Positions 3,728 through 19,632 of a DNA stretch of 22,122 nucleotides are shown here, in pieces. Source of the stretch: a virus. Numbering within the stretch: position 1 is the stretch's first letter; every line of letters begins with the position of its first letter. Under the pieces are notes generated by a model. The model worked only from the letters and a program-made list of their open reading frames with translations, was not told the origin of the DNA and did no database searches. Where the stretch lies: positions 1 through 22,122 of the IMG/VR virus record IMGVR_UViG_3300043395_000604; one strand, 5' to 3'. A program made the translations under genes and the position numbers.

Positions 3728-5095
3728 GTGCCCACCTCATGGGGTAGTGGCACCTGGGGCAGTGGCGCTTGGGGTGGACTTGGTGAAACCCTAACAGGCG
3801 TCACTGCTAGTGGTGCTGTAGGTACGGCAGGGGCGAATGTAACGGTCGCCCTAACGGGCGTTGCTGCCACCGGCACTCCTGGCTCTATTGCAGTCAATGG
3901 GCGCAACATTGCGCTCACAGGCGTTGCTGCCTCGGGAGGGGTAGGTAGCGTCACAGAGACAAACGCTCCGACTGAAGATGGCGTCATTGCCACCGGCTCG
4001 GTTGGTACCGCAACTCCGTCCAGTACGGTTGCCCTTTCTGGCGATGATGCCGCAGGTGCGGTAGGTACCGTCACTGTTGGTGAGCGTACGGTTGCGCTCA
4101 CTGGTGTTTCTGCATCCGGGCTGGCCGGTACGGTATCTCCGGCTGTCTCCGTTGGCCTTGTCCATGTCGAAGCTGAAGGCTTCGTTGACGATGTAAATCC
4201 ATTCCCCAACCCAGAGATCTCTGAAGTTCACGGGGATGGTTTTGCTGGGGATGTCGAGAGTTCACGCACGGTTGCACTGACCGGCGTCAGTGCCTCTGGA
4301 ATTGTTGGCACGATGGATCCCATCGTCAGCCAGAACGCAGACATCACCGGAGTTCAGGCTGACGGCGCTGTGGGCAGCGTCGCGGTTGGCACAATTGAGG
4401 TCGCGCTCACGGGGGTTGAGGCGGCTGGTGAAACTGGCGACGTCACAGAAACAAACGCCCCCGCCGAGGACGGTGTTGTAGCCTTCGGTTCCGTTGGTAC
4501 TCTGGGTGTTGGTCCTCACGAGTTCAGCCTGTCTGGCGTATCCGCTCAAGGCGATGTCGGTACAGTTTCCGGTGCTATTTCGGTTGCTCTGACTGGGGTT
4601 GAAGCCCAGGGGCAGGTTGGCAACATCACGGCTGGTGAGCGCACGGTTGCGCTGACTGGAGTATCTGCGTCCGGCCTTACGGGCAATCTGGTTCGCCTTG
4701 TTGAGCAGCCTATCACGGGCGTGTCTGCGGCGGGTCAGGTTGGCGATGTAACCGAAACAAACAGCCCGACTGAAGACGGCGTTGTAGCAAACGGTTTTGT
4801 TGGCACCCCCGGTGTTGATGTCACGGTGGCCTTGACAGGCGTCAGTGCTTCTGGTGCAGTCGGGGATGTCACGTTCAATAAGATTGCCGCTCTAACCGGC
4901 GTGGCGGCAACAGGTGCCGTAGGCACCGTGTCCATTGGTGAACGGCTGGTGGCGATCACTGGCAGTCAGGCGATGGGCCAAGTAGGCTCGTTTGGTGTTT
5001 TCTACTGGTCACTTATTGATGACTCGCAGAACGCCAACTGGCAGAATATTGACAACTCGGAATCCAGCGACTGGGTTGTGATTCCAACGCAATAG
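3728..5095 (+). CDS. 20-residue-repeat virion/fibre protein (GTG start)
   Basis: A 455-residue protein built almost wholly from about 20 copies of a roughly 20-residue unit with consensus (V)ALTGVSASGxVGTV. It starts with a Trp/Gly-rich cap (SWGSGTWGSGAWGG, residues 4-17) and ends with a different, Trp- and Asn-rich tail (DDSQNANWQNIDNSESSDWV). The regular spacing and small residues suggest a beta-solenoid or stacked beta-hairpin rod exposed on the particle. I do not know a named family. The start is GTG, chosen because AAAGGAG lies seven bases upstream and MPTSWG resembles the MPTSY start of the next gene. The ribosome site is partly inside a hairpin (3704-3724). It leads the fibre cluster, so a fibre or tail-decoration role is likely. 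Confidence 0.72.
   Translation: MPTSWGSGTWGSGAWGGLGETLTGVTASGAVGTAGANVTVALTGVAATGTPGSIAVNGRNIALTGVAASGGVGSVTETNAPTEDGVIATGSVGTATPSSTVALSGDDAAGAVGTVTVGERTVALTGVSASGLAGTVSPAVSVGLVHVEAEGFVDDVNPFPNPEISEVHGDGFAGDVESSRTVALTGVSASGIVGTMDPIVSQNADITGVQADGAVGSVAVGTIEVALTGVEAAGETGDVTETNAPAEDGVVAFGSVGTLGVGPHEFSLSGVSAQGDVGTVSGAISVALTGVEAQGQVGNITAGERTVALTGVSASGLTGNLVRLVEQPITGVSAAGQVGDVTETNSPTEDGVVANGFVGTPGVDVTVALTGVSASGAVGDVTFNKIAALTGVAATGAVGTVSIGERLVAITGSQAMGQVGSFGVFYWSLIDDSQNANWQNIDNSESSDWVVIPTQ
3791..4989 (+). repeat. About 20 tandem copies of a 20-codon unit
   Basis: Successive units read LTGVTASGAVGT, LTGVAATGTPGS, LTGVAASGGVGS, EDGVIATGSVGT and so on to ITGSQAMGQVGS, with a period close to 20 residues. 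A special unit containing TETN-x-P-x-EDGV occurs three times, at 3950, 4442 and 4748. The two degenerate units around 4160-4260 (VHVEAEGFVDD, SEVHGDGFAGD) break the pattern. Codons differ between copies, so the array is old or under selection rather than a fresh expansion. Confidence 0.8.
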
Positions 5096-5104
5096 GAGCG
5101 TTAA

Positions 5105-7072
5105 ATGCCCACCTCATATACCTCCCTTCTGGGTTTGGCCCTGCCGGTCACCGGGGAACTCTCAGGCACCTGGGGCGACACAGTCAACCAGTACATCACG
5201 CAGTATCTCGATGCTGCGGTTGAAGGTACTCAAACCATCAGCGGAAGCCAGACCTCGGTCACGTTGAGCGTCACTAACGGAACGGCGCTGTCTCAGGTAG
5301 GGGCGGGCGCAACCGGCTCTGCCCAGTACGCCATCATCAACTGCACGGGCAACCCGGCAAGCACGCTGACCATCACGGCTCCGGCTTCCAGCCGCGAGTA
5401 CATCGTGCTTAACAGCACGTCCACCAGCCAGTCTGTAGTCTTCCGGGGTGCTGGCCCGACGACAGGCGTGACCGTTGTTTCTGGGGAGCGTTGTATCGTC
5501 GCCTGGAATGGCAGCGATTTCGTCAAGGTAGTCACCAGCGTGGCAGACGGCGTGACCTCGGTCAGTGGCACCGGCACGGTGCAGGGCTTGACGCTTTCCG
5601 GTACGGTGACCTCCACCGGCTCGCTGACTCTGGGCGGCTCGCTCTCGGCAGTTAGCCTTACCACTCAGGTTTCGGGCACGCTGCCTGTGGCCAACGGCGG
5701 TACGGGCGTCACGACTTCTACGGGCTCGGGCTCAGTGGTTCTGTCCACCAGTCCCGCGCTGACCACGCCCAATCTGGGTACACCTTCAGCCGCCACGCTG
5801 ACCAACGCAACTGGCCTGCCTCTGACGACTGGTGTTACAGGTACTCTGCCTGTGGCCAACGGCGGTACGGGTGTGACGACCTCTACGGGCAGCGGCAGCA
5901 ACGTGCTGTCTAACAGCCCTGCGTTGACCACGCCTAACTTGGGTACGCCCTCAGCCGCTACGCTGACTAACGCAACGGGTCTGCCCTTGACCACCGGGGT
6001 GACCGGTACTCTGGCTGTGGCCAACGGCGGCACGGGCCTTACCGCTGCTCCTACTAACGGCCAGATTGACATCGGCAGCACGGGTGTTGGATTTGTCCGA
6101 ACGACCCTGACCGCTGGATCAGGCGTAAGCATCACAAACGGCGCGGGGGCGATCACCATCGCTGCTACCGGCTCAGGCGGCACGGTTACTTCCGTGTCCG
6201 GCACCGGTACGGTCAACGGCCTGACGCTATCAGGTACGGTCACTTCTTCTGGCAGCTTGACGTTGAGCGGTGCCATCTCCGGGGTTCCGAACTCGGCCAC
6301 CACCGCCACAAGTCTGAACACGGCTTCTGCCATCGTAGCGCGGGATGCGTCTGGTAACTTCAGCGCTGGCACCATCACGGCGACCTTGAGCGGAAATGCT
6401 TCGTCTGCTACGACAGCCACTACCGCTACGACGGCCACGCAGGTTTCAAACAGCCTGACACTGGCAACTTCTGGTACGGGTCTGTCCGGCTCCGCCACGT
6501 TCAACGGCTCGTCTGCTCAGACCTTCACGGTCACCTCCAACGCGACTAGCGCGAATACGGCCAGCACCATCGTTGCTCGGGACGCTTCGGGTAACTTCAG
6601 CGCCGGTACGATTACGGCTACGCTGAGCGGCAACGCCACTACGGCCACGACAGCCACCACCGCCAACGCGTTGGCTACCGGTAATAACTACCAAGTCAAC
6701 TCGCTGGGCGTTGGTACCGCCGCATCTGGCACCATCGGTGAAATCCGCGCCACCAACAACGTCACGGCCTACTACTCAGATGACCGACTGAAGACGCGCC
6801 TGGGGGTTATTGAGAACGCTTTGCAGAAGTTGCGGACGTTGGAGGGTTTCTATTACCATGCCAACGAAACCGCGCAAGCCCTGGGCTATGAGCCGGTGCG
6901 CGAAGTTGGTGTGTCAGCGCAGTCTGTTCAGCGCATCCTGCCCGAAGTGGTTGCCCCGGCACCGATTGACGACAAGTACCTGACCGTTCGATATGAGAAG
7001 CTGATTCCCTTGCTGATTGAAGCAATCAAAGAACTAGCAGACCAAATCGACGCACTCAAAGGAGCCAAGTAA
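5105..7072 (+). CDS. Tail fibre with C-terminal peptidase S74-type chaperone
   Basis: A 655-residue trimeric-fibre-type protein. Residues 1-40 (SLLGLALPVTGELSGTWGDT and on) are a particle-attachment-type N-terminus common in aquatic phages. A beta head follows, with FRGAGPTTGVTVVSGERCIV near residue 120. The shaft (about 150-550) is Thr/Ser/Gly/Ala-rich and contains internal duplications. The C-terminus from S558 is an intramolecular chaperone of the peptidase S74 family: SDDRLK carries the S558/K563 pair expected for self-cleavage, followed by FYYHANETAQALGYEP, REVGVSAQSVQRILPEVV and YEKLIPLLIEAIKELADQI. In the family the chaperone trimerises the fibre and is then cut off just before the serine, leaving about 557 mature residues. 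AGGAGCG precedes the ATG; the stop overlaps the next start (TAATG). Confidence 0.9.
   Translation: MPTSYTSLLGLALPVTGELSGTWGDTVNQYITQYLDAAVEGTQTISGSQTSVTLSVTNGTALSQVGAGATGSAQYAIINCTGNPASTLTITAPASSREYIVLNSTSTSQSVVFRGAGPTTGVTVVSGERCIVAWNGSDFVKVVTSVADGVTSVSGTGTVQGLTLSGTVTSTGSLTLGGSLSAVSLTTQVSGTLPVANGGTGVTTSTGSGSVVLSTSPALTTPNLGTPSAATLTNATGLPLTTGVTGTLPVANGGTGVTTSTGSGSNVLSNSPALTTPNLGTPSAATLTNATGLPLTTGVTGTLAVANGGTGLTAAPTNGQIDIGSTGVGFVRTTLTAGSGVSITNGAGAITIAATGSGGTVTSVSGTGTVNGLTLSGTVTSSGSLTLSGAISGVPNSATTATSLNTASAIVARDASGNFSAGTITATLSGNASSATTATTATTATQVSNSLTLATSGTGLSGSATFNGSSAQTFTVTSNATSANTASTIVARDASGNFSAGTITATLSGNATTATTATTANALATGNNYQVNSLGVGTAASGTIGEIRATNNVTAYYSDDRLKTRLGVIENALQKLRTLEGFYYHANETAQALGYEPVREVGVSAQSVQRILPEVVAPAPIDDKYLTVRYEKLIPLLIEAIKELADQIDALKGAK
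5681..6060 (+). repeat. 165-bp tandem repeat in the fibre shaft (two full copies plus partial)
   Basis: Copies start at 5681, 5846 and 6011, each spaced exactly 165 bases (55 codons). Each begins with LPVANGGTG or LAVANGGTG; the two full copies share SPALTTPNLGTPSAATLTNA and LPLTTGVTGTL. The third copy diverges after about 15 residues into TNGQIDIGSTG. Synonymous differences between copies show that protein sequence, not recent DNA duplication, is being kept. Confidence 0.85.
6320..6637 (+). repeat. Second dispersed repeat in the fibre shaft (81 bp, 237 bp apart)
   Basis: The 27-residue block TASAIVARDASGNFSAGT plus ITATLSGNA is encoded at 6320-6400 and again, with Thr for the second Ala, at 6557-6637. 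Each block is followed by an Ala/Thr-rich tract (TTATTATTA). A third shaft motif, VSGTGTV-x-GLTLSGTVTS, occurs at 5561 and 6194. Such units are typical of modular fibre shafts that grow by duplication. Confidence 0.8.
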
Positions 7073-9429
7073 TGCCGCTGCCTTCATCCGGCCCCCTGAG
7101 CCTCAACGACATCCAGACTGAGTTCGGGGGCACCAACCCCATCGGACTCAATGAGTACTACGCAGGGGGCGGGCTTGTGCCTGCTGGGACAACCGGTACC
7201 AATGGTGCTGTGCCCAGCAGCGGCGCTATTTCCATCTTCAATTTCTACGGTACGGCTGCGGTTATTCCGCAATGGTCTTCTGGTTACGCATCGTTTGTCG
7301 TTGACCTATTCAAGGGCAAGCCGCGCGTGGTCGGAAACAGCCTTATTTACGGCTTCATCCAAAACAGCAATCAAAATCTATTTAACGTCGCAAACCTCAA
7401 TGCCGCGACAGGTGCAATTAATTGGGTAAATAGATTTACCATACCCTCGGGATCGAACTACGATACCAATGCTAACGGATCGTTCTACGTTGATGGCAGT
7501 GGCAACTCCTATATTTTATGGGGTAGGCAAACCACCGGCGTCTCAGCAGTACTCGCAAAAGTAGACAGTTCTGGAAACCTGGTCTGGAGCAAAAGCCTCG
7601 GCTTGCCGCTTTACACCGAATCGTCAAACGGAACAAATATAATAACCGATTCGGCTTCTAATATCTATATAGCCGCCTCTAACCTACAGAATACTAGTAA
7701 TGGCTCAGTTTTATATAAGTATGACTCAAGCGGCAATTTTGTTTGGGCCCGCTATTGGACAGACTCAGCGGTCGCGGTAAATGGGTTTAGAGTAGGTAGT
7801 TTGGCCATAGACTCTTCCGATAATATAACCATGTGGGGCGCAACCTACTCCCCCAATGTCTGGGGGTTTTTGGTTCAGTACAGCAGCGCCGGAACTTTTC
7901 TCAGCGCAACTAGAGTCTTTAATGGAACTTTTGGAACTTACTACGCTTATTCACAATATGGCAGCATCGCCATCGCTCCAAGTACTGGGAATGTCTATAT
8001 TGCAGGCTACTCCACACCTTCTGGAAGTGGAGCTGTACAACGGCTTTGTGTGACGAAACTTAATTCGTCAATGACACATCAATGGACACGGTTTTTTACT
8101 CCCACGGTAAATCAAATTACCCGAGCACTTGTCTTAGACTCCTCTGAAAACGTCTACATCACTTTTGGCGGTGCAACAAGCTCTTACCTGGAGTCTTTTG
8201 CGGTCCTTAATACCTCGGGTACGCTCTTGTGGAGTACGCAATTCGGTAATTCCCCGGCTTTTGCCGCAAATCAGTCCTTTATAAATTCGTTTCAGACCGC
8301 AGTTGTCTCAGGTGATTCTATATATGCTTTGGCCAGCCTTAGATATCAGGACGCAGCGCCACAAGATGTAATGCAGGTCTTGCGATTTAGCATAACAAGT
8401 TTCCTACCTGACGGTATATACCCCAGTCGCAGCGCTCTCAGTAGCACGCGGGGGGTTGCTTCTGGCGTAGATCAGGATCCCGGCGCATCGACTACCACTA
8501 GCATAGCGCCAGCCACGACATCCAACGCATCCTCTGCGACCATTTCTGGCTCATCAGCAAATACCACCGTAAATCAAACATCCCTTACGCTTCCGACGGT
8601 CTATAACGGAACCATATCGCCGGTCACAACAACGGGCTCCTTTGCTTTTGTTGATCCGGGGACTTATACGTGGCTTGTGCCTACTGGCGTCACAAGAGTA
8701 AGCGCTGTTGTGGTTGGCGCAGGAAGCGCCGGCCTTGCTAGTAGTGGTGGCGGTGGCGGTGGTCTTGCTTACGCAAATAACTACACTGTAACCCCCGGCA
8801 CCAACATCAATGTTCAGGTGGGGACAGGCCCAGCGGGCAGTATCAGTAACTGCGCCGTGACCCGTGGTACTGCTAGTTGGTTTGTCAACGCCTGTACCCT
8901 TAAAGGGGGCTCAGGGGCTTGCGCAGGCAACCCCTCAACCGGCGGCTCCTCCTCTGGGTCTGCCCGGGCCGGTGGAGGTTCTGGTGGAAACGGGTCGGGA
9001 TCTTATGGTAGCGGAGGCGGTGCTGGAGGATATTCCGGTAATGGCGGAGCGGGAGTTAGTTGCGGGACTCTGGGTAATGCCGGGACGGGGGGTGCCGGTG
9101 GTAGCGGTGCGGGAGCTAGTTTTGCGGGGAACACTTGCTATATTTATATGGGGCCGTCCGGAAGCGGGGGCGGAGTTGGGATTATAAGCGGGGGTTCGAG
9201 CGGCGCTGGCGGCGCAGCCTTAGGCAGTGGCGGGTATGCCGGTTCAGGCGGATATACCCAAACTTTTGGCGGGGGTGGTGGCGCTGGCGGATACTACATT
9301 GGTAATGTAGGTACCTGCTGCGAATACAGGGAGTGCTACGCAGGCGCACCTGGACATCAGGGCGCTGTAAGAATTATCTGGCCCGGAAGCACTAGAAGCT
9401 TCCCCAGCACTAACACAGGAGCGCCGTAA
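7072..9429 (+). CDS. Large tail adhesin: propeller-like core and glycine-rich tip
   Basis: A 785-residue presumed receptor-binding protein. Residues 1-65 (PLPSSGPLSLNDIQTEFGG through ISIFNFYG) are a conserved attachment domain of aquatic phage fibres. Residues about 80-445 hold six or so units pairing D-SSGNxYI-G with VxKxDSSGNLVWS (for example LAKVDSSGNLVW, YKYDSSGNFVW, LDSSENVYITFGG), like SBBP-type beta-propeller repeats. A Ser/Thr/Ala linker (445-520) leads to a glycine-rich C-terminal domain starting GTYTWLVPTGVTRVSAVVVG and ending AVRIIWPGSTRSFPSTNTG, a tail I recall in other phage fibres. The tip has eight cysteines and no evident chaperone. Base composition in the propeller region is AT-richer than neighbouring genes, suggesting exchange. 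AAAGGAG lies upstream; the start overlaps the S74 fibre stop. Confidence 0.82.
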   Translation: MPLPSSGPLSLNDIQTEFGGTNPIGLNEYYAGGGLVPAGTTGTNGAVPSSGAISIFNFYGTAAVIPQWSSGYASFVVDLFKGKPRVVGNSLIYGFIQNSNQNLFNVANLNAATGAINWVNRFTIPSGSNYDTNANGSFYVDGSGNSYILWGRQTTGVSAVLAKVDSSGNLVWSKSLGLPLYTESSNGTNIITDSASNIYIAASNLQNTSNGSVLYKYDSSGNFVWARYWTDSAVAVNGFRVGSLAIDSSDNITMWGATYSPNVWGFLVQYSSAGTFLSATRVFNGTFGTYYAYSQYGSIAIAPSTGNVYIAGYSTPSGSGAVQRLCVTKLNSSMTHQWTRFFTPTVNQITRALVLDSSENVYITFGGATSSYLESFAVLNTSGTLLWSTQFGNSPAFAANQSFINSFQTAVVSGDSIYALASLRYQDAAPQDVMQVLRFSITSFLPDGIYPSRSALSSTRGVASGVDQDPGASTTTSIAPATTSNASSATISGSSANTTVNQTSLTLPTVYNGTISPVTTTGSFAFVDPGTYTWLVPTGVTRVSAVVVGAGSAGLASSGGGGGGLAYANNYTVTPGTNINVQVGTGPAGSISNCAVTRGTASWFVNACTLKGGSGACAGNPSTGGSSSGSARAGGGSGGNGSGSYGSGGGAGGYSGNGGAGVSCGTLGNAGTGGAGGSGAGASFAGNTCYIYMGPSGSGGGVGIISGGSSGAGGAALGSGGYAGSGGYTQTFGGGGGAGGYYIGNVGTCCEYRECYAGAPGHQGAVRIIWPGSTRSFPSTNTGAP

Positions 9430-9938
9430 TGAGCCTGTATATTGAGGTCGTTGATGGGCGTCCAGTCAACCATCCCATCATGGCCAGCAACTTGGCCTTG
9501 GTTTATCCTGGACTGGACGAGGCAGGACTTCGGGCATTGGGGTACGAGCCGTTTGTTCGCGTACCGTTGGTGCAAACTACGGACAAGGTTTTTGTTAGAA
9601 CTGAATATGAGCTAGTTGGTGGCGTTTGGACGGATGTTCACTATTTTCGTGATTTGACGCCCGAAGAGATTGCGGAACACAAGCGGCAAAGACGAGAAGT
9701 AGTAACCAACTTTTGGCAAAACCAGCGCTCGTATGCTCACAATTTTACGGCGTGGGTGTACGATGAAACTCTGGAGCGTTTTGTGCCGCCTTTCCCCAAG
9801 CCGGATGATGGCAAGTTTTACCGTTGGAGCGGCCCGGATAACAACTGGAAAGAGGCCCCGCCGTTTCCAGACGATGGCAAAAAATATCACTTTGATTTTG
9901 ACAACTGGGTCAATATAGAGGCACCGACTAATGTGTAA
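9429..9938 (+). CDS. Fibre-associated small protein with duplicated C-terminal motif
   Basis: A 169-residue protein starting MSLYIEVVDGRPVNHPIMAS and containing VGGVWTDVHYFRDLTPEEIAE. The C-terminus repeats a motif: VPPFPKPDDGKFYRW (about residues 119-133, followed by NNWKE) and APPFPDDGKKYHF (143-155, followed by DNWVNIE). Similar proteins sit directly after fibre genes in aquatic phages; I recall them as hypothetical, with a likely assembly, chaperone or minor-fibre role by position. The N-terminal half is acidic and mixed alpha/beta, with a helical stretch around 77-105. Its ATG overlaps the adhesin stop (TAATG), which supports coupled production of the two proteins. It has no membrane segment or catalytic motif that I can identify. 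Confidence 0.7.
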   Translation: MSLYIEVVDGRPVNHPIMASNLALVYPGLDEAGLRALGYEPFVRVPLVQTTDKVFVRTEYELVGGVWTDVHYFRDLTPEEIAEHKRQRREVVTNFWQNQRSYAHNFTAWVYDETLERFVPPFPKPDDGKFYRWSGPDNNWKEAPPFPDDGKKYHFDFDNWVNIEAPTNV

Positions 9939-10614
9939 CGCTGCGCAGCCCAAGGAGGTCGTAGAGCAGAACGCGCTGCAAATCGCAGTGCAATTCCCTT
10001 GCCCGGTCTTCATCATCGACCGGCCCGACTTCTTGGCTGCGGTGCAGGAGGTGTCTGAAGAACATCTCAAGTCAATGCACGCTCAGCACCAAGTCAACGA
10101 CATTTATCCCGCCATGATGACGGGAACTTTCCACAACGATGCTCGGATTCGCCCTTTTGCGGAGTACGTGGCTTCCACCGCATGGAACATCTTGGACAGC
10201 CAAGGTTACGCCATGCAGCAGTTCAACACTTTCTTTGAGTCCATGTGGACTCAGGAGCACCACAAGCAGTCCTCGATGGAGCAGCATGTCCACGGTGGTG
10301 GCGTGCAGATCGTGGGGTTCTACTTTCTTGAGGTGCCTGAAGGCTCATCGCGTGTGGTGTTCCATGACCCGCGTCCCGGCAAGGTGATGGGCGATCTGCC
10401 ACAGAAGGACATTACCCAAGCCACCCCGGCCAGCCAGATGATTAACTTTGAGGCCAAGCCCGGTCGGTTGATCTTCTCCAATGCTTGGTTGCCGCATTCC
10501 TTCACCCGCCATGCGGGCGATAAGCCCCTGAAATTCGTGCACTTCAACCTTGGTGTGATGTACGCCAACGCTCAGGCTCAGACCTGCCAAGCGCCTGCTG
10601 CCGAGGTGGTATGA
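9931..10614 (+). CDS. 2OG-Fe(II) oxygenase-like protein
   Basis: A 227-residue protein resembling phage 2-oxoglutarate/Fe(II)-dependent dioxygenases, which couple decarboxylation of 2-oxoglutarate to hydroxylation of a substrate. The diagnostic stretch is EQHVHGGGVQIVGFYFLEVP (H119, H121) followed by SSRVVFHDPRP (D146), then GRLIFSNAWLPHSFTRHAGD (H189) and KFVHFNLGV. This fits the H-x-H...GxYFLxxP...FxDPR...FP-WLxH pattern of the putative 2OG-Fe(II) oxygenase group (2OG-FeII_Oxy_5-like). The usual 2-oxoglutarate-binding Arg near the C-terminus appears as K201 in PLKFVHFNL, so activity should be tested. It overlaps the preceding gene by 8 bases; GAGG at 9917-9920 precedes the ATG. The substrate is unknown; a virion protein or host small molecule are both possible. 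Confidence 0.8.
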   Translation: MCNAAQPKEVVEQNALQIAVQFPCPVFIIDRPDFLAAVQEVSEEHLKSMHAQHQVNDIYPAMMTGTFHNDARIRPFAEYVASTAWNILDSQGYAMQQFNTFFESMWTQEHHKQSSMEQHVHGGGVQIVGFYFLEVPEGSSRVVFHDPRPGKVMGDLPQKDITQATPASQMINFEAKPGRLIFSNAWLPHSFTRHAGDKPLKFVHFNLGVMYANAQAQTCQAPAAEVV

Positions 10615-10865
10615 ACAAGTACAGCATCCGTTTCAACAAGAGCCGTGGACAGCCCGGACGGGGCAGCATGGATCATGTGTGGCGGGTGTTTGAGAATGGC
10701 AAAGAGTTCCTGTTCAAAAACTTGGACATCTCGGTGCCGGTCAAGAGCGAGAAAGACGCCAACGGGCAGGACTACAACATCTGCTGCCAGGGCTACATGA
10801 CCATCGACCGTGAGTCGTCCACCGCCGTTATCACGGCGACCGTCAAGGAACCTGCGGAGGCATAG
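10611..10865 (+). CDS. Small phage protein, unknown function
   Basis: An 84-residue basic protein beginning MNKYSIRFNKSRGQPGRGSM, then DHVWRVFENGKEFLFKNLDI and a C-terminal block with YNICCQGYMTIDRESSTAVI. I recall this as a conserved small protein of aquatic phages, often next to a 2OG-Fe(II) oxygenase-like gene, with no known function. The predicted fold is mostly beta. It has a tandem CC pair but no metal-binding spacing. GAGG at 10603-10606 lies four bases before the ATG, and the start overlaps the oxygenase stop (ATGA, 10611-10614), which ties its production to the enzyme. A substrate or regulator role for the oxygenase is a guess. Confidence 0.75.
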   Translation: MNKYSIRFNKSRGQPGRGSMDHVWRVFENGKEFLFKNLDISVPVKSEKDANGQDYNICCQGYMTIDRESSTAVITATVKEPAEA

Positions 10866-10866
10866 C

Positions 10867-11232
10867 ATGGAAGACATCAAACCCGCCGAGACCGCCAAGG
10901 AAGTCGCTGGTAAGTCCATCGGCAGGTTTGGCCTCTTCTACATCACCCTGATCGTGCTGATCGGGGTTGGCTCCTCCTACTTCCTGTCTGACTCGGCCAT
11001 CACGGCGGTGATGACGATGATTGGCGGCGCTCTGGTGGCGCTCATCAACATGATGAACGGTATTGCCGGGACTGCCGAGAAGCAGGAGAAGCCCGAGTTC
11101 AAGGTCATCCAGACCCTCATCGAGAAACTTGACCGGCTTGACAAGCCTGAACAGCCCATGCGCGTGACAGTGCAAGGGGACAAAGTCACGGTGTCCAAGG
11201 GTGACGATGTGGTCACGGCGGCGAGGGAGTAA
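10867..11232 (+). CDS. Two-TM membrane protein, holin candidate
   Basis: A 121-residue protein with two hydrophobic segments (about residues 21-40, FGLFYITLIVLIGVGSSYFL, and 44-68, AITAVMTMIGGALVALINMM) and a long charged C-terminal tail containing VIQTLIEKLDRLDKPEQ and VTVQGDKVTVSKGDDVV. Topology and position suggest a class II-type holin or accessory lysis protein; no family is certain. The ATG at 10867 is chosen over an in-frame one at 10810 because GGAGG (10856-10860) lies six bases upstream and the longer version would start inside the preceding gene. It opens a run of four membrane-protein genes before the endolysin. Confidence 0.68.
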   Translation: MEDIKPAETAKEVAGKSIGRFGLFYITLIVLIGVGSSYFLSDSAITAVMTMIGGALVALINMMNGIAGTAEKQEKPEFKVIQTLIEKLDRLDKPEQPMRVTVQGDKVTVSKGDDVVTAARE

Positions 11233-11240
11233 CGGGGTGT

Positions 11241-11735
11241 ATGGAGCCAATTACCGGCATTCTCGCGGCAGTATCGGCGGCGAATGCTGCTTTTGGGGCC
11301 GTCAAGAAACTTGTCGCCACTGGCCGCGAGATCCAAGATGTAGCCGGTCAGATCGGCAAGTGGTACGGTGCCTTCGGGGACTTCAACCGCCTAGCCAACG
11401 AAAAGGCCAACAAGAAGCCGTCCGTCTTTAAACGCCTGCTGCATGACGGCTCGGTCGAGCAGGAAGCCTTGCAGATCACGATGCACAAGCAGGCGCTCGT
11501 GAAGCAGGAGTACGAACTCAAGATCCTGATCATCGCTCACTACGGTGAGAATGTTTACAACGAGATGATCATGGAGCGCATCCGACTCAAGAAGGAGCGC
11601 GAAAAGAAAGACCGTGAGCATCGTTTGCGGCAGCAGGAGTTCATGCTCAACGTGAAGTACGGGGCGGCGATTGCTTTCGTGCTGACCGCCCTGATCGGGG
11701 TTGGTTACTACTTGATTGACAAGGTGCAGAGATGA
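11241..11735 (+). CDS. C-terminally anchored basic-helix membrane protein
   Basis: A 164-residue protein with an Ala-rich, amphipathic N-terminus (MEPITGILAAVSAANAAFGA), a central helical region containing SVEQEALQITMHKQALVKQE, a strongly basic helix (RIRLKKEREKKDREHRLRQQ, about 114-132) and a C-terminal transmembrane helix (about 140-158, GAAIAFVLTALIGVGYYLI). I recall related proteins in aquatic phages, always hypothetical. The layout could serve lysis, as an anti-holin or spanin-like factor, or it could be a membrane-docked virion factor. It overlaps the next gene in an ATGA junction (11732-11735). A GGGG tract precedes the ATG. Confidence 0.68.
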   Translation: MEPITGILAAVSAANAAFGAVKKLVATGREIQDVAGQIGKWYGAFGDFNRLANEKANKKPSVFKRLLHDGSVEQEALQITMHKQALVKQEYELKILIIAHYGENVYNEMIMERIRLKKEREKKDREHRLRQQEFMLNVKYGAAIAFVLTALIGVGYYLIDKVQR

Positions 11736-12235
11736 GTTTCAAGAAGCCACCGGAGGGTGCAAGTCGGTCGGAGAGGGAGGCTTATGTCAAGGCTCTTGCT
11801 GCGGTTTCTATTAGCCTGCTTGCTCTTCTCCTTGCTGTTACAAATTACTTTGCCGGACGAAACTCATCTGCGGTTCTCAACGGAACCATAGAGGCCAACA
11901 ACCTCTGGACTTGGTACGGCACCAAGAATGTCCGGGCGTCCATGTTCTCTATCGCCGCCGAGCAGGGTGGGGCCAAGGCTGACACCTTCGACAAGCAGGC
12001 CATCCGGCTCAAGGACGACATGGTGGAGATTGAGGCTAAGGCCCGTGAGGCTGAGGCTAAGCGCGATGCTGCCAAGGCGAAGTCTTCTTGGTACTCCTAC
12101 TCCGGCATGGCGCTGCAACTGGCCATCGTCCTGTCCTCTGCCGCCATCTTGGCCGTCACCCTGAGCCTGTTCTACGCCTCCATCGGGGTGGGGGCAGTTG
12201 GGGTTGTTCTGTTCTTTGTTGCTCTAGGAGCCTGA
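11732..12235 (+). CDS. DUF4337-like three-TM membrane protein
   Basis: A 167-residue integral membrane protein resembling DUF4337: one N-terminal TM (about 21-41, ALAAVSISLLALLLAVTNYF), the signature-like IEANNLWTWYGTKNVRASMF (about 53-72), a charged coiled-coil rich in Lys, Glu and Ala (about 85-117), and two C-terminal TMs (126-147 and 149-166). The cellular family is of unknown function; it is unusual to see it inside a phage lysis block. It could be a host-derived membrane protein recruited for lysis control, superinfection exclusion or membrane remodelling. All three are inference. The start overlaps the preceding gene (ATGA), and the stop lies one base before the next start. Confidence 0.68.
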   Translation: MSFKKPPEGASRSEREAYVKALAAVSISLLALLLAVTNYFAGRNSSAVLNGTIEANNLWTWYGTKNVRASMFSIAAEQGGAKADTFDKQAIRLKDDMVEIEAKAREAEAKRDAAKAKSSWYSYSGMALQLAIVLSSAAILAVTLSLFYASIGVGAVGVVLFFVALGA

Positions 12236-12236
12236 G

Positions 12237-12740
12237 ATGCTGTCGCTCATTTCCACCCTTGGAGGTCTGCTGATCTCCGGCCTGCCCAAGTTGCTGGAGT
12301 ATTTTCAAAACAAGGCTGACCAGGCCCACGAACTGAAGCTGGCTCAGATTCAGACTGAACGGGAACTCCAGTTGGCGGCCCAGGGGTTTGCTGCACAAGC
12401 CCGGATGGAAGAGGTTCGCCTGGAGCAAGTGGCTCTGGAAACAGACGCCCGGATGACCGAGGCAGCGCTCGACCATGACAAGAAGATCATGGAAAAGGCT
12501 TCGACTTGGGTGGTCAATTACACCGGTACGGTGCGCCCCACGGTGACCTACCTGTTTGTTTTTGAGCTGATTGCCATCAACGCCTTCATGGCCTGGTATA
12601 TCTGGAACCACCCCAACCTGATCACCAGTATTGATGACATCGTCAAATACTCAGATCTGATTTTTAGCGAAAGCGAACTCAGTATGCTGGGGTCAATAAT
12701 TGGCTTCTGGTTCGGAAGCCGCCAGTGGGGCAAGAAGTGA
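12237..12740 (+). CDS. Holin, GTA_holin_3TM type
   Basis: A 167-residue protein ending in the features of the 3TM holin family associated with gene-transfer-agent release: TVRPTVTYLFVFELIAINAF (about 98-117) as the main TM after a VRP motif, and SMLGSIIGFWFGSRQWGKK at the C-terminus. The N-terminus has a short hydrophobic stretch (LISTLGGLLISGLPKLL), followed by a long charged helix rich in Glu, Gln and Ala (about 25-85). Holins open the inner membrane at a set time so that the endolysin reaches the wall. Pairing with the endolysin gene directly downstream (GTGA overlap at 12737-12740) supports this. TAGGAG at 12225-12230 lies six bases before the ATG. Confidence 0.85.
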   Translation: MLSLISTLGGLLISGLPKLLEYFQNKADQAHELKLAQIQTERELQLAAQGFAAQARMEEVRLEQVALETDARMTEAALDHDKKIMEKASTWVVNYTGTVRPTVTYLFVFELIAINAFMAWYIWNHPNLITSIDDIVKYSDLIFSESELSMLGSIIGFWFGSRQWGKK

Positions 12741-13240
12741 AACTGAGCCTGGTAGGTGAAGCCCTCATGCACAAGTATGAGGGGTTTAGGAGTAAACCCT
12801 ACCTTTGCCCCGCCCATATATGGACGATCGGGTATGGCCACGTGCTGTACCAAGAGCAGATCAAGCTGCCGTCCGTGCGCAAAGAAGGCTACACCGGGAT
12901 GCTCCGCAGCGAGTTCCCGTTGAAACCGGAGGACAACCGTGTTTGGACTAAGACGGAGATCGACGAACTATTCCACGCTGATGTCGTCATGTTTGAACGT
13001 GGTGTTCTTCGACTTGTTCCCCCTGTATCTGGGCGTCAAGGCAGCTTTGACGCTCTGGTCAGCTTTGCCTTCAATGCTGGGCTAGGCCGACTGCAAAGCA
13101 GTCAGATCAGGATGCGGGCCAATCGGGGGGACTGGGATGGGGCTGCCGCAGGGTTCAGGAACTTCATCACGGGGGGTGGCAAGGTGCTGCCGGGTCTGGT
13201 AAAACGCCGTGAGGCAGAGATTGCCCTTTTCTTGTCTTGA
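12737..13240 (+). CDS. Endolysin, GH24-type lysozyme (E-C-T triad)
   Basis: A 167-residue muralytic enzyme that would cleave peptidoglycan glycan strands. The N-terminal catalytic region reads HKYEGFRSKPYLCPAHIWT and continues IGYGHV: E15, then eight residues, C24, then five residues, T30. This is the E-8aa-D/C-5aa-T triad of T4/lambdoid-type endolysins, here in its Cys form. Later family blocks are FDALVSFAFNAGLGRLQSSQ, WDGAAAGFRNFITGGGKVLP and GLVKRREAEIALFL. No signal peptide or SAR helix is seen, so export would need the holin upstream. I chose the GTG at 12737, which overlaps the holin stop (GTGA) and has GGGG six bases before it. An in-frame GTG at 12725 would add four residues and is also possible. 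Confidence 0.9.
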   Translation: MKLSLVGEALMHKYEGFRSKPYLCPAHIWTIGYGHVLYQEQIKLPSVRKEGYTGMLRSEFPLKPEDNRVWTKTEIDELFHADVVMFERGVLRLVPPVSGRQGSFDALVSFAFNAGLGRLQSSQIRMRANRGDWDGAAAGFRNFITGGGKVLPGLVKRREAEIALFLS

Positions 13241-13255
13241 CACGAAAATACTGCC

Positions 13256-15100
13256 ATGCCGCTCCAAAAAATACTCTTCAAGCCCGGGGTCAACCGCGAG
13301 AACACGCGCTACACCACTGAGGGCGGTTGGTACGAGTGCGACAAGGTGCGCTTCCGTCAGGGCAACCCGGAAGTCATTGGCGGCTGGGAGCCGTTGTCCT
13401 TGGGCCGGTATTTGGGCGTGTGCCGCTCGCTGTGGAACTGGGTGACGCTGGGCAAACTCAACTTGGTCAGCGTAGGCACCAATCTCAAGTTCTACATTGA
13501 GCGCGGCGGCGCGTACTTTGACATCACGCCGATCCGCACAACCACCACGCTCCCGCTCGACCCCTTTACGGGCAACGGCACGACCACAGTAACGGTAAAC
13601 GCCCCGACCAACGGTGCCCTAACTGGGGACTTCGTTACCTTCAGCGGTGTGACTGGCGCATACGCCTCGCTGCTCAATGGCGAGTTCCAGATCAACAATG
13701 CATCCACGAACTCGTACACCATCACGGTGGCCTCAGCCATCCCTGCTGGGGTTACGGGTGGTGCCGCGGTATCTGCCGCATATCAACTCAACACTGGCCC
13801 GGCCGAGGCCATTCCTTTTAACGGCTGGGGCGCGGGTGCCTGGAGTTTTGGCGCTTGGGGCACGGGCGGATCTACGGTCACCGCGCTGCGCGTATGGAGC
13901 CAGGGCAACTGGGGCCAAGATTTGATCTTTGGCCCGCGCAACGGCGGCATTTACTACTGGGATGCCAATACTGGCGTGGCCACGCGCGGCTTTGATTTGG
14001 CCACAGCGGTTGGCGCGTCAGACGTACCTACGGTGCAGAACTACCTCTTTATCTCGGACATCAACCGATTTGTTTTTGCAATGGGCTGCAACGACTACGG
14101 CAGCGCGGTGCAGGACCCGATGTTGATTCGTTGGTCAGATCAGGAAGACGCGTACAACTGGACACCTGCAGCTACCAACCAGGCGGGTAGCCTGCGCCTG
14201 TCCCACGGCTCGACGATCGTCACGGCTGTGCAGGCACGTCAGGAAATCGTGGTGTTCACGGATTCCTCTCTGTACTCGCTGCAGTACCTGGATGCGCCTA
14301 TTTTCTGGGGCGCTCAATTGCTGGGCGACAACATCTCCATCGTGGGCCAGAACGCGGCAGTGATCGCTTCCGGCATCGTGTACTGGATGGGCGTGGACAA
14401 GTTCTACGCCTACGACGGCCGTGTGCAGACCTTGAACTGCGATCTGCGTCGGCACGTGTTCCAAGACTTCAACATGGCGCAGTCCCAGCAGGTCTTTGCT
14501 GGCACGAACGAAGGCTTCAACGAGGTCTGGTGGTTCTATTGCTCACAGAACTCCACGGTCATCGACAAGTACGTGGTATTCAACTACCTTGAGAATGTTT
14601 GGTACTACGGCACGATGAACCGTACGGCCTGGCTGGATTCCGGCCTGCGCGAGTTCCCGATGGCCGCCACTTACAGCAACACGCTGGTCTATCACGAGGC
14701 GGGGCTCAACGACAACGTGGCGGGCACTCCCGTGCCGATCAATGCCTACATCTCGTCGTCTGAGTTTGACATCGGTGACGGCCACAACTTCGGATTCGTG
14801 TGGCGCATACTGCCTGACCTGACGTTCCAAAACTCCACGAACGACCCGAACACAAACCTGTCGCCGCGTGTGACGATGTCGGTGGCAGGCCTTTACAACT
14901 CGGGGTCGGGGCGTATCGATACTGCCAGCGGCCTGGTGGCTAAGACCAGTCAGTACCTGCTGACCGAGGAGTTCACCGGCCAAATCTACACCCGTGTGCG
15001 CGGCCGGCAGATGGTGTTTGAAATTGAGTCCAACCAGTTGAACACGGCCTGGCAGCTTGGCGCGCCGCGTATTGACATCAGACCGGATGGGCGGCGATGA
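13256..15100 (+). CDS. Tail nozzle / stabilisation protein (P22 gp10- or T7 gp12-like)
   Basis: A 614-residue protein resembling the nozzle or packaged-DNA-stabilisation protein of podoviruses, which closes the tail below the adaptor ring. The start MPLQKILFKPGVNRENTRYT with GGWYECDKVRFRQGNPEVIG is typical of the family. Later blocks QEDAYNWTPAATNQAGSLRL, VQARQEIVVFTDSSLYSLQY, SIVGQNAAVIASGIVYWMGV and KFYAYDGRVQTLNCDLRRHV indicate a beta-propeller core (about 230-480). A Thr-rich insertion (about 100-180) and a WGAGAWSFGAWGTGG stretch (about 190) are accessory. No Shine-Dalgarno is visible before the ATG; reinitiation from the endolysin stop 16 bases upstream is likely. It overlaps the next gene (ATGA). 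Confidence 0.87.
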   Translation: MPLQKILFKPGVNRENTRYTTEGGWYECDKVRFRQGNPEVIGGWEPLSLGRYLGVCRSLWNWVTLGKLNLVSVGTNLKFYIERGGAYFDITPIRTTTTLPLDPFTGNGTTTVTVNAPTNGALTGDFVTFSGVTGAYASLLNGEFQINNASTNSYTITVASAIPAGVTGGAAVSAAYQLNTGPAEAIPFNGWGAGAWSFGAWGTGGSTVTALRVWSQGNWGQDLIFGPRNGGIYYWDANTGVATRGFDLATAVGASDVPTVQNYLFISDINRFVFAMGCNDYGSAVQDPMLIRWSDQEDAYNWTPAATNQAGSLRLSHGSTIVTAVQARQEIVVFTDSSLYSLQYLDAPIFWGAQLLGDNISIVGQNAAVIASGIVYWMGVDKFYAYDGRVQTLNCDLRRHVFQDFNMAQSQQVFAGTNEGFNEVWWFYCSQNSTVIDKYVVFNYLENVWYYGTMNRTAWLDSGLREFPMAATYSNTLVYHEAGLNDNVAGTPVPINAYISSSEFDIGDGHNFGFVWRILPDLTFQNSTNDPNTNLSPRVTMSVAGLYNSGSGRIDTASGLVAKTSQYLLTEEFTGQIYTRVRGRQMVFEIESNQLNTAWQLGAPRIDIRPDGRR

Positions 15101-16518: not shown

Positions 16519-19500
16519 ATGGCAAACGACACTTCCGGCATCATGGCTCTGCCTGCGATGGACCAGCAACAAGGACCGGGGCCCGCGGCCCAAGGGCCAG
16601 ACGCCCAGATGGTGTTCGACAGCTTGCGGCAAAACGTTTCCCCTCGGGAAGTTTCTGACGAGCTGCTGGCCACTGCCGCTGAAGCTGATCCGCAGGCCGT
16701 TGCGGAATTCAAGGCTGCTCTTGAGGAACTGGATGTTCCCGACGAGATCCTTGAGCTGCTGGACCGCCTGGTTGACGAGATCCTGGCCGATCCGGGCAAC
16801 TATGAGGCCATCAAGGAGAAGTACCGGGCGCAAGGCGTTACCGAAGACATCCTGCCGGAGGAGTTCGATCCCGAGCTGTTTGGCGCGCTGAACCTGGCCA
16901 TCGACCAGCTTCGCGGCAAGCCCGCAGCCCCAATGGCTCCCCAGGAGTTTGCCAAGGGCGGTATTGCAAACCTCACCCCGGTGGCCAAGGCTATTGCTGC
17001 CCAGGGCCGTAATGGTGACACCATGCTGGCGCACATCACGCCGGCAGAGGCCCGCATGCTGAAAAAGCGCGGCGGCTCGGGGACCATCAACCCGCGCACG
17101 GGCTTGCCTGAGTTTGCCAACATCTTCAGCCGTATTGGCAATGCCATCAAGAAGTTTGCTGGCAGCACCGTTGGCAAGTTAGTCATCGGCACCGCCTTGT
17201 TCATGGTGGCGGGCCCGGCGGCTGCTCAGTTTTTGACTCTTTCTAGCCCCATGGCCATTGCTGGCGTCAGCGGCTTTGTAGCGGGTGCGGGAACTACGCT
17301 CCTTGCTGGGGGCAACCTGCGCGATGCTCTGAAAGCAGGCGCGATCGGCGGCATTACCGCTGGCGCTATGCAGGGCATCACGGGCATGGGCCCGGGTACT
17401 CCGGGCGCTCCTAGCGGTGCTGAGGCAGCCCCTGGTGCTCCGGGCGCTCCTTCTGCTCCTGCAGCGCCATCTGCTCCGACGGCCCCAACGGCCCCGACAG
17501 CTCCTCCCGCAGCAATCTCTTCCGGGCCAACCCTTCCGACATTGCCAGGAAGCCAAGGCCTGAGCTCGGTGATGCAGCCCCCAACCGGAATCCCCACCGG
17601 CACCTTTACGGAAACGGGATTTGCCGGGATGATGCCTGGGAGCGCCCCGGTGGCTCCGCCCGTGTCAACTGCTGGAGTTCCCGCCGCTGCGGCTCCTGCG
17701 GGCACGTCTTCTGTTGCAGCCCCCACGTCCCTTTTTGACAAGACCACTGATTTCCTGAAGCAGACGTTTTCTCCTTCTGCAATCGAGGCGCAGGGGATCC
17801 CTGCTGCAGAAAAGGCAGGGCGCGAGGCAATCACATCGCTCACCAATCGGCTGCCTGACGCCACGCCTGCGATGAAAGAAGCGGCGTATCAGGCCGCATA
17901 CAAAAACGCCCTACCAGGTGCGTTTGCCAAGTACGGCCCTGCAGCCGCCGCAGGCCTGGGGATCTTGGGCCTGTCAGGCGGATTCCAAACCAAACAGGTC
18001 AAGTCCCCGTACTCGGATTTGTTTACGGGCGGCCCTGGTTCGGCCCGTGATCTGATGGCCAAGAACCCTTCCCTGTACTATCTCCAAGGCCTGCCGGGGG
18101 TGTCCTACTACAACGGATCCGTAGTGCCTCCGACTCTCGCCCCCACCGTTTCTCCCCCGGGCTATGCCCATGGCGGGGTGGTACAGCATTTTGAGGATGG
18201 CGGCGCCGCTACCAATCCTGTGGATCCGGCAGCCAGTACTCCTCCGATTGTTGGTGCAGCTCCTGCTGTAACGCCCCCCGCTTCTCAAATTGGTACCCCC
18301 TCGGTCTCGTCCGTGGAGGTAGCTACGCCTGCCAGCGGTGGGTACAACAACTACTACCCTGCGGCGCAAAACATCTTCTACGGGGAGATGAACAAGCGCC
18401 TGTTGAGCGGCATCCCCACGATCGATCCCAGCATTACTTCTGCTACACCGGAGCAGAAGGCTGACTACTACAACCAGCTTATTGGCCAGGGCTACACGGA
18501 TCCTCAAATCCGAGCAGGGGCGGGGCCGCAAACAAATGAGAACTGGAACCAGTTGCGGGACATTGCTTCTCGCCGTCCGGCTGTGACGGGTGGCGGAATC
18601 GGTGCATTTCAACCGCAGCCTTTGATGTTCCCGGGCCAAGAAGAATTGGCCCGACTGGATGCCGAATACCGCAAGACCATGGGGGACCGCGCTCCACGGA
18701 CAGAGCCCCCGGGCTATGGGGCACCTCTCCGTTTGCCTGGCGTGACTATTCCCGGCGCGGGAGCCGGAGGCGGCGGGGGCGGCGCACCGACCCTGCCCCC
18801 GGCCACAAACCTGTCACCGGAAGCCAAACGTCTGCAGGGCATTTTCGACACGTCCATCTTCAACAAGACACCTAACGAAAAGGCGGCTTACTACAACTCG
18901 CTACTGGCGCAAGGCTACGACGACGCCACCATCCGGGCAGCCATCAATGCCCCGCTGGACCAGAACTGGCTTGATCTGCGGTCCATTGCTGCTGGCTTGC
19001 GTGCAGGCTCAACGGGCGGAGGCGGTGGCGGTGGCGGTGACACAACCACAACCACGGGCGGAGGCGGTGGCGGTGGCGGTGGCGGAACGACCACGACTAC
19101 CGGTGGGGGCACGACCACGACCACGGGTGGCGGTACCACAATTACCCCGCTGGAGCGGTTGCGGGCCACCTTTGACATGTCGATTCTTAGCGGAACGCCG
19201 CAGCAAAAAGCGGCCTACTACAACTCCCTGATTTCTGCCGGGTATGACGATGCCACCATTCGTGCTGCCATCGGTGCCCCAGAAGACGACAATTGGATGC
19301 TTTTGCGCCAGTTGGCCGCGGGGCAGTTGTCCGGGGGGAATTTGAGCCCGGGTGGCGGAGCCGCAAAGGACACGAATGATTCAACCATCGTGCAGCAAAA
19401 GGCACTGGGCGGTATTGCCGCTTTAGGCTCGGGCGGGTATCCTCGTCGCACTGGTCAAATCAGTGGCCCTGGGACCGAAAAGTCGGATTCCATCCCTGCA

Positions 19501-19632
19501 ATGCTCTCTGACGGCGAATTTGTCATGACTGCCCGTGCCGTGCGTGGCGCGGGAGGCGGCGACCGCCGCAAAGGGGCAAAGAAGATGTATGCGCTCATGC
19601 ATCAACTGGAACGTAATGCATCACGGGGCTGA
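16519..19632 (+). CDS. Presumed internal virion / DNA-ejection protein (1037 residues)
   Basis: A 1037-residue, Ala/Gly/Pro-rich protein. Order: acidic helical N-terminus (about 30-135); a block AKGGIANLTPVAKAIAA with DTMLAHITPAEARMLKKRG and INPRTGLPEFANIF (145-204); a hydrophobic region that could cross or insert in a membrane (about 214-290, GKLVIGTALFMVAGPAAAQF); an Ala/Pro/Thr-rich stretch (291-400); a second KGG-like motif YAHGGVVQHFEDGG (about 550-563); three copies of a 56-residue module (627-686, 771-826, 880-935) separated by Gly- or Thr-rich linkers; and a conserved C-terminus GPGTEKSDSIPAMLSDGEFV, then MTARAVRGAGGGDRRKGAKK. I recall the KGGIANL and SDGEFVMTA motifs from internal virion proteins of aquatic podoviruses. 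A role in DNA ejection is likely but inferred. It is followed by two more such genes. Confidence 0.72.
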   Translation: MANDTSGIMALPAMDQQQGPGPAAQGPDAQMVFDSLRQNVSPREVSDELLATAAEADPQAVAEFKAALEELDVPDEILELLDRLVDEILADPGNYEAIKEKYRAQGVTEDILPEEFDPELFGALNLAIDQLRGKPAAPMAPQEFAKGGIANLTPVAKAIAAQGRNGDTMLAHITPAEARMLKKRGGSGTINPRTGLPEFANIFSRIGNAIKKFAGSTVGKLVIGTALFMVAGPAAAQFLTLSSPMAIAGVSGFVAGAGTTLLAGGNLRDALKAGAIGGITAGAMQGITGMGPGTPGAPSGAEAAPGAPGAPSAPAAPSAPTAPTAPTAPPAAISSGPTLPTLPGSQGLSSVMQPPTGIPTGTFTETGFAGMMPGSAPVAPPVSTAGVPAAAAPAGTSSVAAPTSLFDKTTDFLKQTFSPSAIEAQGIPAAEKAGREAITSLTNRLPDATPAMKEAAYQAAYKNALPGAFAKYGPAAAAGLGILGLSGGFQTKQVKSPYSDLFTGGPGSARDLMAKNPSLYYLQGLPGVSYYNGSVVPPTLAPTVSPPGYAHGGVVQHFEDGGAATNPVDPAASTPPIVGAAPAVTPPASQIGTPSVSSVEVATPASGGYNNYYPAAQNIFYGEMNKRLLSGIPTIDPSITSATPEQKADYYNQLIGQGYTDPQIRAGAGPQTNENWNQLRDIASRRPAVTGGGIGAFQPQPLMFPGQEELARLDAEYRKTMGDRAPRTEPPGYGAPLRLPGVTIPGAGAGGGGGGAPTLPPATNLSPEAKRLQGIFDTSIFNKTPNEKAAYYNSLLAQGYDDATIRAAINAPLDQNWLDLRSIAAGLRAGSTGGGGGGGGDTTTTTGGGGGGGGGGTTTTTGGGTTTTTGGGTTITPLERLRATFDMSILSGTPQQKAAYYNSLISAGYDDATIRAAIGAPEDDNWMLLRQLAAGQLSGGNLSPGGGAAKDTNDSTIVQQKALGGIAALGSGGYPRRTGQISGPGTEKSDSIPAMLSDGEFVMTARAVRGAGGGDRRKGAKKMYALMHQLERNASRG
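18397..19323 (+). repeat. Three copies of a 56-residue helical module
   Basis: Copies lie at 18397-18576, 18829-18996 and 19156-19323. The consensus is TPxxKAxYYNxLxxxGYxDxxIRA(A)xxxPxxxNWxxLRxxA. Copies 2 and 3 are the closest, both 56 codons long and containing KAAYYNSL, GYDDATIRAAI and LR-x-LAAG or LRSIAAG endings; copy 1 is more diverged (KADYYNQL, GYTDPQIRAG). Linkers between copies are glycine- or threonine-rich. Confidence 0.82.
19010..19141 (+). repeat. Gly/Thr low-complexity linker
   Basis: Between module copies 2 and 3 the DNA alternates GGCGGAGGCGGTGGCGG runs with ACGACCACGACC-type runs, encoding stretches of up to ten Gly alternating with five-Thr blocks. The near-identical units at 19018-19058 and 19058-19140 suggest slippage or unequal exchange. 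The protein would be a flexible spacer. Confidence 0.8.

Follow-up and report, generated by a model that had tools for sequence, protein, structure and literature searches.

The window analysed here, a 22,122-nucleotide virus fragment from IMG/VR, encodes virion proteins similar to those of Phage DSL-LC04 and, at a greater distance, of Puniceispirillum phage HMO-2011 and cyanophages; gp15097 is 67% identical in DSL-LC04 and 44% identical in HMO-2011. In HMO-2011-type phages, variable tail-fibre genes have been linked by the authors to host adaptation (PMC6918029). On the plus strand of the window, the adhesin comes after an S74-chaperone tail fibre and is itself followed by a 169-aa gene and then by an oxygenase of the 2OG-Fe(II) type. 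The tail-fibre gene (5105-7072; Pfam Peptidase_S74, E 1.7e-8; PHROG tail fibre) ends in a C-terminal S74 intramolecular chaperone and forms a conserved left flank, while the oxygenase (9931-10614; Pfam 2OG-FeII_Oxy_5, E 5.5e-11) forms the conserved right flank. Between them lie the adhesin, one open frame of 785 codons at 7072-9429, and a fast-diverging gene at 9429-9938 whose 169-aa product has an aromatic-rich C-terminus. The adhesin itself is divided into an N-terminal module of residues 1-66 (7072-7269), a predicted beta-propeller core of residues 67-450 (7270-8421), a Ser/Thr-rich linker of residues 451-522 (8422-8637) and a Gly-rich C-terminal domain of residues 523-785 (8638-9429; Pfam Gly_rich_2, E 7.5e-9; phrog_4474, E 5.5e-40). 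Elsewhere in the window, long poly-Gly/poly-Thr tracts occur at 18950-19180 inside a 1037-aa ORF (16519-19632), and two small neighbouring membrane-protein genes share a 31-nt stretch (10948-10978 and 11682-11712, 81% identical) that covers a hydrophobic segment and is possibly duplicated.

The initial annotation had drawn attention to an AT-rich dip at 7340-8420, based on hand counts of single 60-base lines. Those counts were accurate (41.7, 38.3 and 33.3% G+C at 7381, 7621 and 7681; 56.7% at both 14101 and 16681), and the dip is real, as 7340-8420 has 45.42% G+C and equals the minimum, at 7339, among all 1081-base windows of the contig (mean 58.4%, sd 3.6). To take protein composition out of the comparison of codon usage, we set the observed GC3 against a value predicted by amino-acid content and by the codon preferences of the remaining genes. 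By this measure the first 66 codons resemble their neighbours, as had been proposed (0.677 against a predicted 0.694, z -0.3), and the core departs strongly (0.442 against 0.701, z -11.0). The proposal that the C-terminal tail is likewise neighbour-like did not hold, since the Gly-rich tail has a GC3 of 0.494 against 0.687 expected (z -6.7); its total G+C is high (0.607) and looks normal because the GGN codons of glycine are GC-rich. The linker (here residues 451-528, z -3.6) and the gene at 9429-9938 (z -5.1) are also shifted, and normal codon composition returns in the oxygenase gene (z +0.6). The shift was therefore correctly placed on the core but is not confined to a propeller domain of residues ~80-445, as low GC3 runs from about codon 66 to about position 9930. 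The compositional block spans approximately 7270-9930, and the exchangeable propeller and linker approximately 7270-8637. A second strong codon shift lies upstream in the ORF at 3728-5095 (GC3 z -7.7, leave-one-out offset -0.16), which is built of GVSASG/VGTV-type repeats, matches no Pfam or PHROG family and has relatives in DSL-LC04 and further phages, where they precede the S74 fibre.

The full-length adhesin was modelled poorly (mean pLDDT 40), and the core was therefore folded alone. From a two-sequence alignment, AlphaFold2 predicted a beta-propeller for residues 67-450, in agreement with the propeller-like domain suggested earlier, with a pTM of 0.75, a mean pLDDT of 66 and a propeller-like strand pattern; a single SBBP repeat is detected in the core at the Pfam cut-off. 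In VIA-align comparisons, the model matched CylK (Z 33), YncE (Z 28) and the PLL lectins of Photorhabdus (Z 25). YncE and the PLL lectins are seven-bladed, and the core is predicted to be a propeller of the seven-bladed type, the blade number resting on the strand count and the likeness to YncE and PLL instead of a direct count. The core thus shares its predicted fold with SBBP/NHL-type and PLL-type propellers (Photorhabdus lectins, the CylK C-domain and YncE; Z 25-33 over ~285-345 residues), but the likeness is at the level of the fold, with only 8-20% sequence identity to the solved propellers and 8-11% to the PLL lectins. A like fold at ~21-25% identity is found in propeller proteins of uncultured Caudovirales (BFVD A0A6J7WN20 and A0A6J5N4Z3) and in a propeller repeat protein of Leptospira phage LE1, which belong to different phages with no established N-module in common. 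A sequence search of the PDB returned nothing significant, and a plasmid search returned weak generic SBBP proteins only. Back-translated peptide patterns, which reach close relatives only, detected no kin of the core, either in IMG/VR or in 84,980 genomes, and a distant blastn of the block against phage records gave no match. By analogy with known modular receptor-binding proteins, the propeller most likely binds a host surface glycan, and a role of the adhesin in host range may be inferred.

The N-terminal module occurs at no fewer than 80 viral loci at 55-92% identity, with an S74-type gene near most of them, and by analogy is a probable virion-attachment plug. The bodies behind it are unrelated to one another and include RCC1 repeats (L083), DUF7483 repeats (L050 and L091), a fibronectin (fn3) domain (L097), the Gly-rich domain itself (L090) and others without any family. 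Several pairs of loci with unrelated bodies resemble each other in N-module and flanks; for example, L098 and L102 share 83% identity upstream, 85.5% in the N-module and 86% over 2463 nt downstream; L097 and L119 share 81% upstream and 84% in the N-module; and L124 and L136 share 91% in the N-module and 99% in one downstream stretch. Some N-module proteins match phrog_30374, a PHROGs family of unknown function. When the N-module was sought in genomes, the single match was a short contig (L166) in a Saccharibacteria bin. This 3.4 kb contig, with an N-module of 61% identity, is possibly a misbinned phage contig or a hint of the host.

The Gly-rich domain is also found outside this context. It is carried on other N-termini at five loci (L174, L176, L181, L190 and L210); at the last four it has the shared C-terminal ending, the N-termini are entirely different and the downstream genes are the same. 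As the N-module and the Gly-rich domain each travel independently, the propeller sits between two mobile modules. The domain matches phrog_4474 and Pfam Gly_rich_2, a family of unknown function, but is fused here to a propeller and the N-module. The gene at 9429-9938 travels with it and is adjacent in many loci, and the set of Gly-rich domain, 169-aa gene and oxygenase is kept together across many phages with varied adhesin N-termini. A pattern search of IMG/VR with the C-domain found no relative, and its relatives surfaced later by synteny. Weak matches of L210 to the S74 fibre and the core that overlap low-complexity fibre were set aside, as were weak C-domain matches from an uncorrected tblastn that had no HMM support.

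Close syntenic loci number only three, which is not enough to build a tree. L082 shares its gene order and all three modules with the window, with identities of 92% in the N-module, 25-31% in the propeller, 42% in the linker and 48% in the Gly-rich domain. The neighbouring proteins are 77-87% identical (79% for the oxygenase, 83% for the final 150 aa of the S74 fibre), except for the next gene at 60%. At the DNA level, blastn matches to L082 are restricted to 6341-7253 and 9615-10808, which leaves the plus-strand stretch 7254-9614 without detectable similarity between conserved flanks. The neighbouring fibre in L082 is collagen-like, with GPTGPTG repeats, which raises the question of whether the oxygenase modifies tail fibres. 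L090 is also syntenic but lacks the propeller and linker; its N-module continues in frame straight into the Gly-rich domain, at a point corresponding to residue ~523. The S74 fibre and the adhesin are among several genes of this record (IMG/VR 3300045125_000021) that contain frameshifts, which are probably sequencing errors. Phage DSL-LC04 shows no match to the N-module or the propeller at the corresponding place. The initial annotation expected relatives with conserved ends and an unrelated core, and a different or missing core was indeed found, but the L082 core is homologous, albeit very diverged.

A comparison of the orders of relatedness indicates that propeller presence and the history of the gene at 9429-9938 disagree with the flanks. 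Between oxygenase and lysozyme, both included, the window is 81.8% identical to L090 over 2233 nt and 73.2% identical to L082 over 1962 nt. Nevertheless, L082 alone has the propeller as well as the more similar version of the gene after the adhesin, whose DNA identity has the opposite order (64.7% to L082, 54.5% to L090). This disagreement fits a block exchange, with loss in L090 combined with uneven rates as an alternative.

Whether AT-richness marks an import was addressed with a panel of 49 non-redundant N-module proteins, in which each body was compared with the codon expectation of its own phage. Across these independent bodies, GC3 tracks the expectation from the phage that carries the body (r 0.90, slope 0.85) and is generally depressed (mean offset -0.067, p 1e-6), with 14% of bodies below -0.15. 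In a leave-one-out control, the offset came out at -0.069 in bodies against +0.001 in other ORFs (p 3e-8), only 1.3% of the latter falling below -0.15, and other ORFs rich in Gly/Ser/Thr/Asn were only slightly low (-0.012). The body in the window is the lowest of the 49 (-0.22), though narrowly, as the next have offsets of -0.22, -0.20 and -0.19. Low GC3 is a class trait of N-module bodies and is stronger in GC-rich phages. Since the bodies are low in GC3 as a class, AT-richness by itself is no proof of recent import and speaks only weakly for a foreign donor in the recent past; most of the AT-rich codon usage is a class trait, which an AT-richer source possibly strengthens here. A GC dip within an adhesin should accordingly not be taken to prove recent import. 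It is rather improbable that low GC3 in these bodies is a property selected in its own right, for example through slow or less accurate translation that aids the folding of repetitive fibres, or through relaxed selection where segments recombine. If so, synonymous codon usage would mark exchangeable adhesin segments in phages that differ widely in composition.

We favour the reading, with a probability of roughly three in four, that the gene encodes a three-module tail-tip adhesin in which the propeller with its linker (~7270-8637) is exchangeable between shared modules. The gene has a conserved N-terminal module shared with other proteins, differing bodies between conserved flanks and a position directly after the S74 fibre, as is typical of modular receptor-binding proteins. 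In such a mechanism, the N-module would plug the adhesin into the tail, as in known modular receptor-binding proteins, and the propeller would present a glycan-binding face. Homologous recombination in the conserved S74 end and N-module on one side, and in the Gly-rich domain and downstream genes on the other, would swap the part between them. Because plug and Gly-rich domain are each common to many phages, the conserved DNA on both sides permits a body to be gained, lost or replaced. Sequence comparison supports modular exchange of the core. The earlier proposal of a receptor-binding domain swapped in from elsewhere stands as far as conserved ends and an exchangeable core are concerned; its other part is not supported, as the searches, whose peptide patterns reach close relatives only, revealed no donor, and the presence in L082 of a very diverged member of this core family shows that the core is no one-off import. 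Weighing against exchange, the homologous L082 propeller is explained equally well by long divergence in place, the missing core of the frameshift-ridden L090 could be a simple deletion, and the searches brought up neither a recent donor nor a near-identical core.

In an alternative without import, the propeller may have been resident for long and diverged rapidly under host selection, its low GC3 being ordinary for surface-exposed repetitive fibre bodies. The homologous propeller at the same place in L082 agrees with this, as do the close dependence of body GC3 on the phage's own genome, upheld by the leave-one-out control, and the extension of the codon shift beyond the core into the Gly-rich tail and next gene. 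We nonetheless consider this history doubtful, if possible, because L090 is nearer by flank and has no propeller, the GC3 offset of the window is the largest in the panel, and loci of this type often hold unrelated bodies within conserved flanks. That same extreme offset would also suit a recent transfer of the whole block, from the propeller to the end of the gene at 9429-9938, out of an AT-richer phage whose codons have yet to adapt. In favour of this, composition changes sharply near codon 66 and again at the oxygenase gene, the gene at 9429-9938 shows reversed relatedness, and the Gly-rich domain, 169-aa gene and oxygenase adjoin one another in several AT-richer phages. Such a transfer is unlikely, however, given that low GC3 is general among these bodies, that the distant blastn found no donor-like DNA in phage records and that the peptide patterns, within their reach of close relatives, found no kin of the core.

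As a lone virus record with no reads behind it, the contig could be an assembly chimera or owe its composition to chance, but this is scarcely credible because the open frame of 785 codons spans both composition edges, L082 shows the same module and gene order, and chance falls far short of a z of -11. Diversity-generating retroelements commonly target tail adhesins, and hypermutation by such a system might underlie the divergence. We regard this as very improbable, since the divergence spans the entire propeller and the repeats of at least 30 nt within 5000-13300, which lie within the S74 fibre or between the two small membrane genes, include no template/variable pair in the adhesin; this search covers the fragment, and a distant reverse transcriptase could lie outside the window. 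Adhesins as retroelement targets are treated in PMC10743442.

That modular adhesins exchange their bodies is already well established. What is new is the N-module with its range of bodies, a single syntenic locus at which the propeller may be present, diverged or missing, and the class-wide codon depression. The locus is a well-delimited illustration of how a tail tip can be re-equipped: dozens of unrelated bodies are found on one small attachment plug, and the propeller varies in state among syntenic relatives. The receptor-binding proteins of Klebsiella phages (PMC8262889) and the tail spikes of Kuttervirus (PMC8432352) are likewise modular, with a conserved N-terminal module, exchanged bodies that vary among close relatives, and conserved flanks. 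Unlike in those systems, the body of the adhesin analysed here is predicted to be a propeller, lies between modules that are both shared with other phages, and belongs to an uncultured phage.
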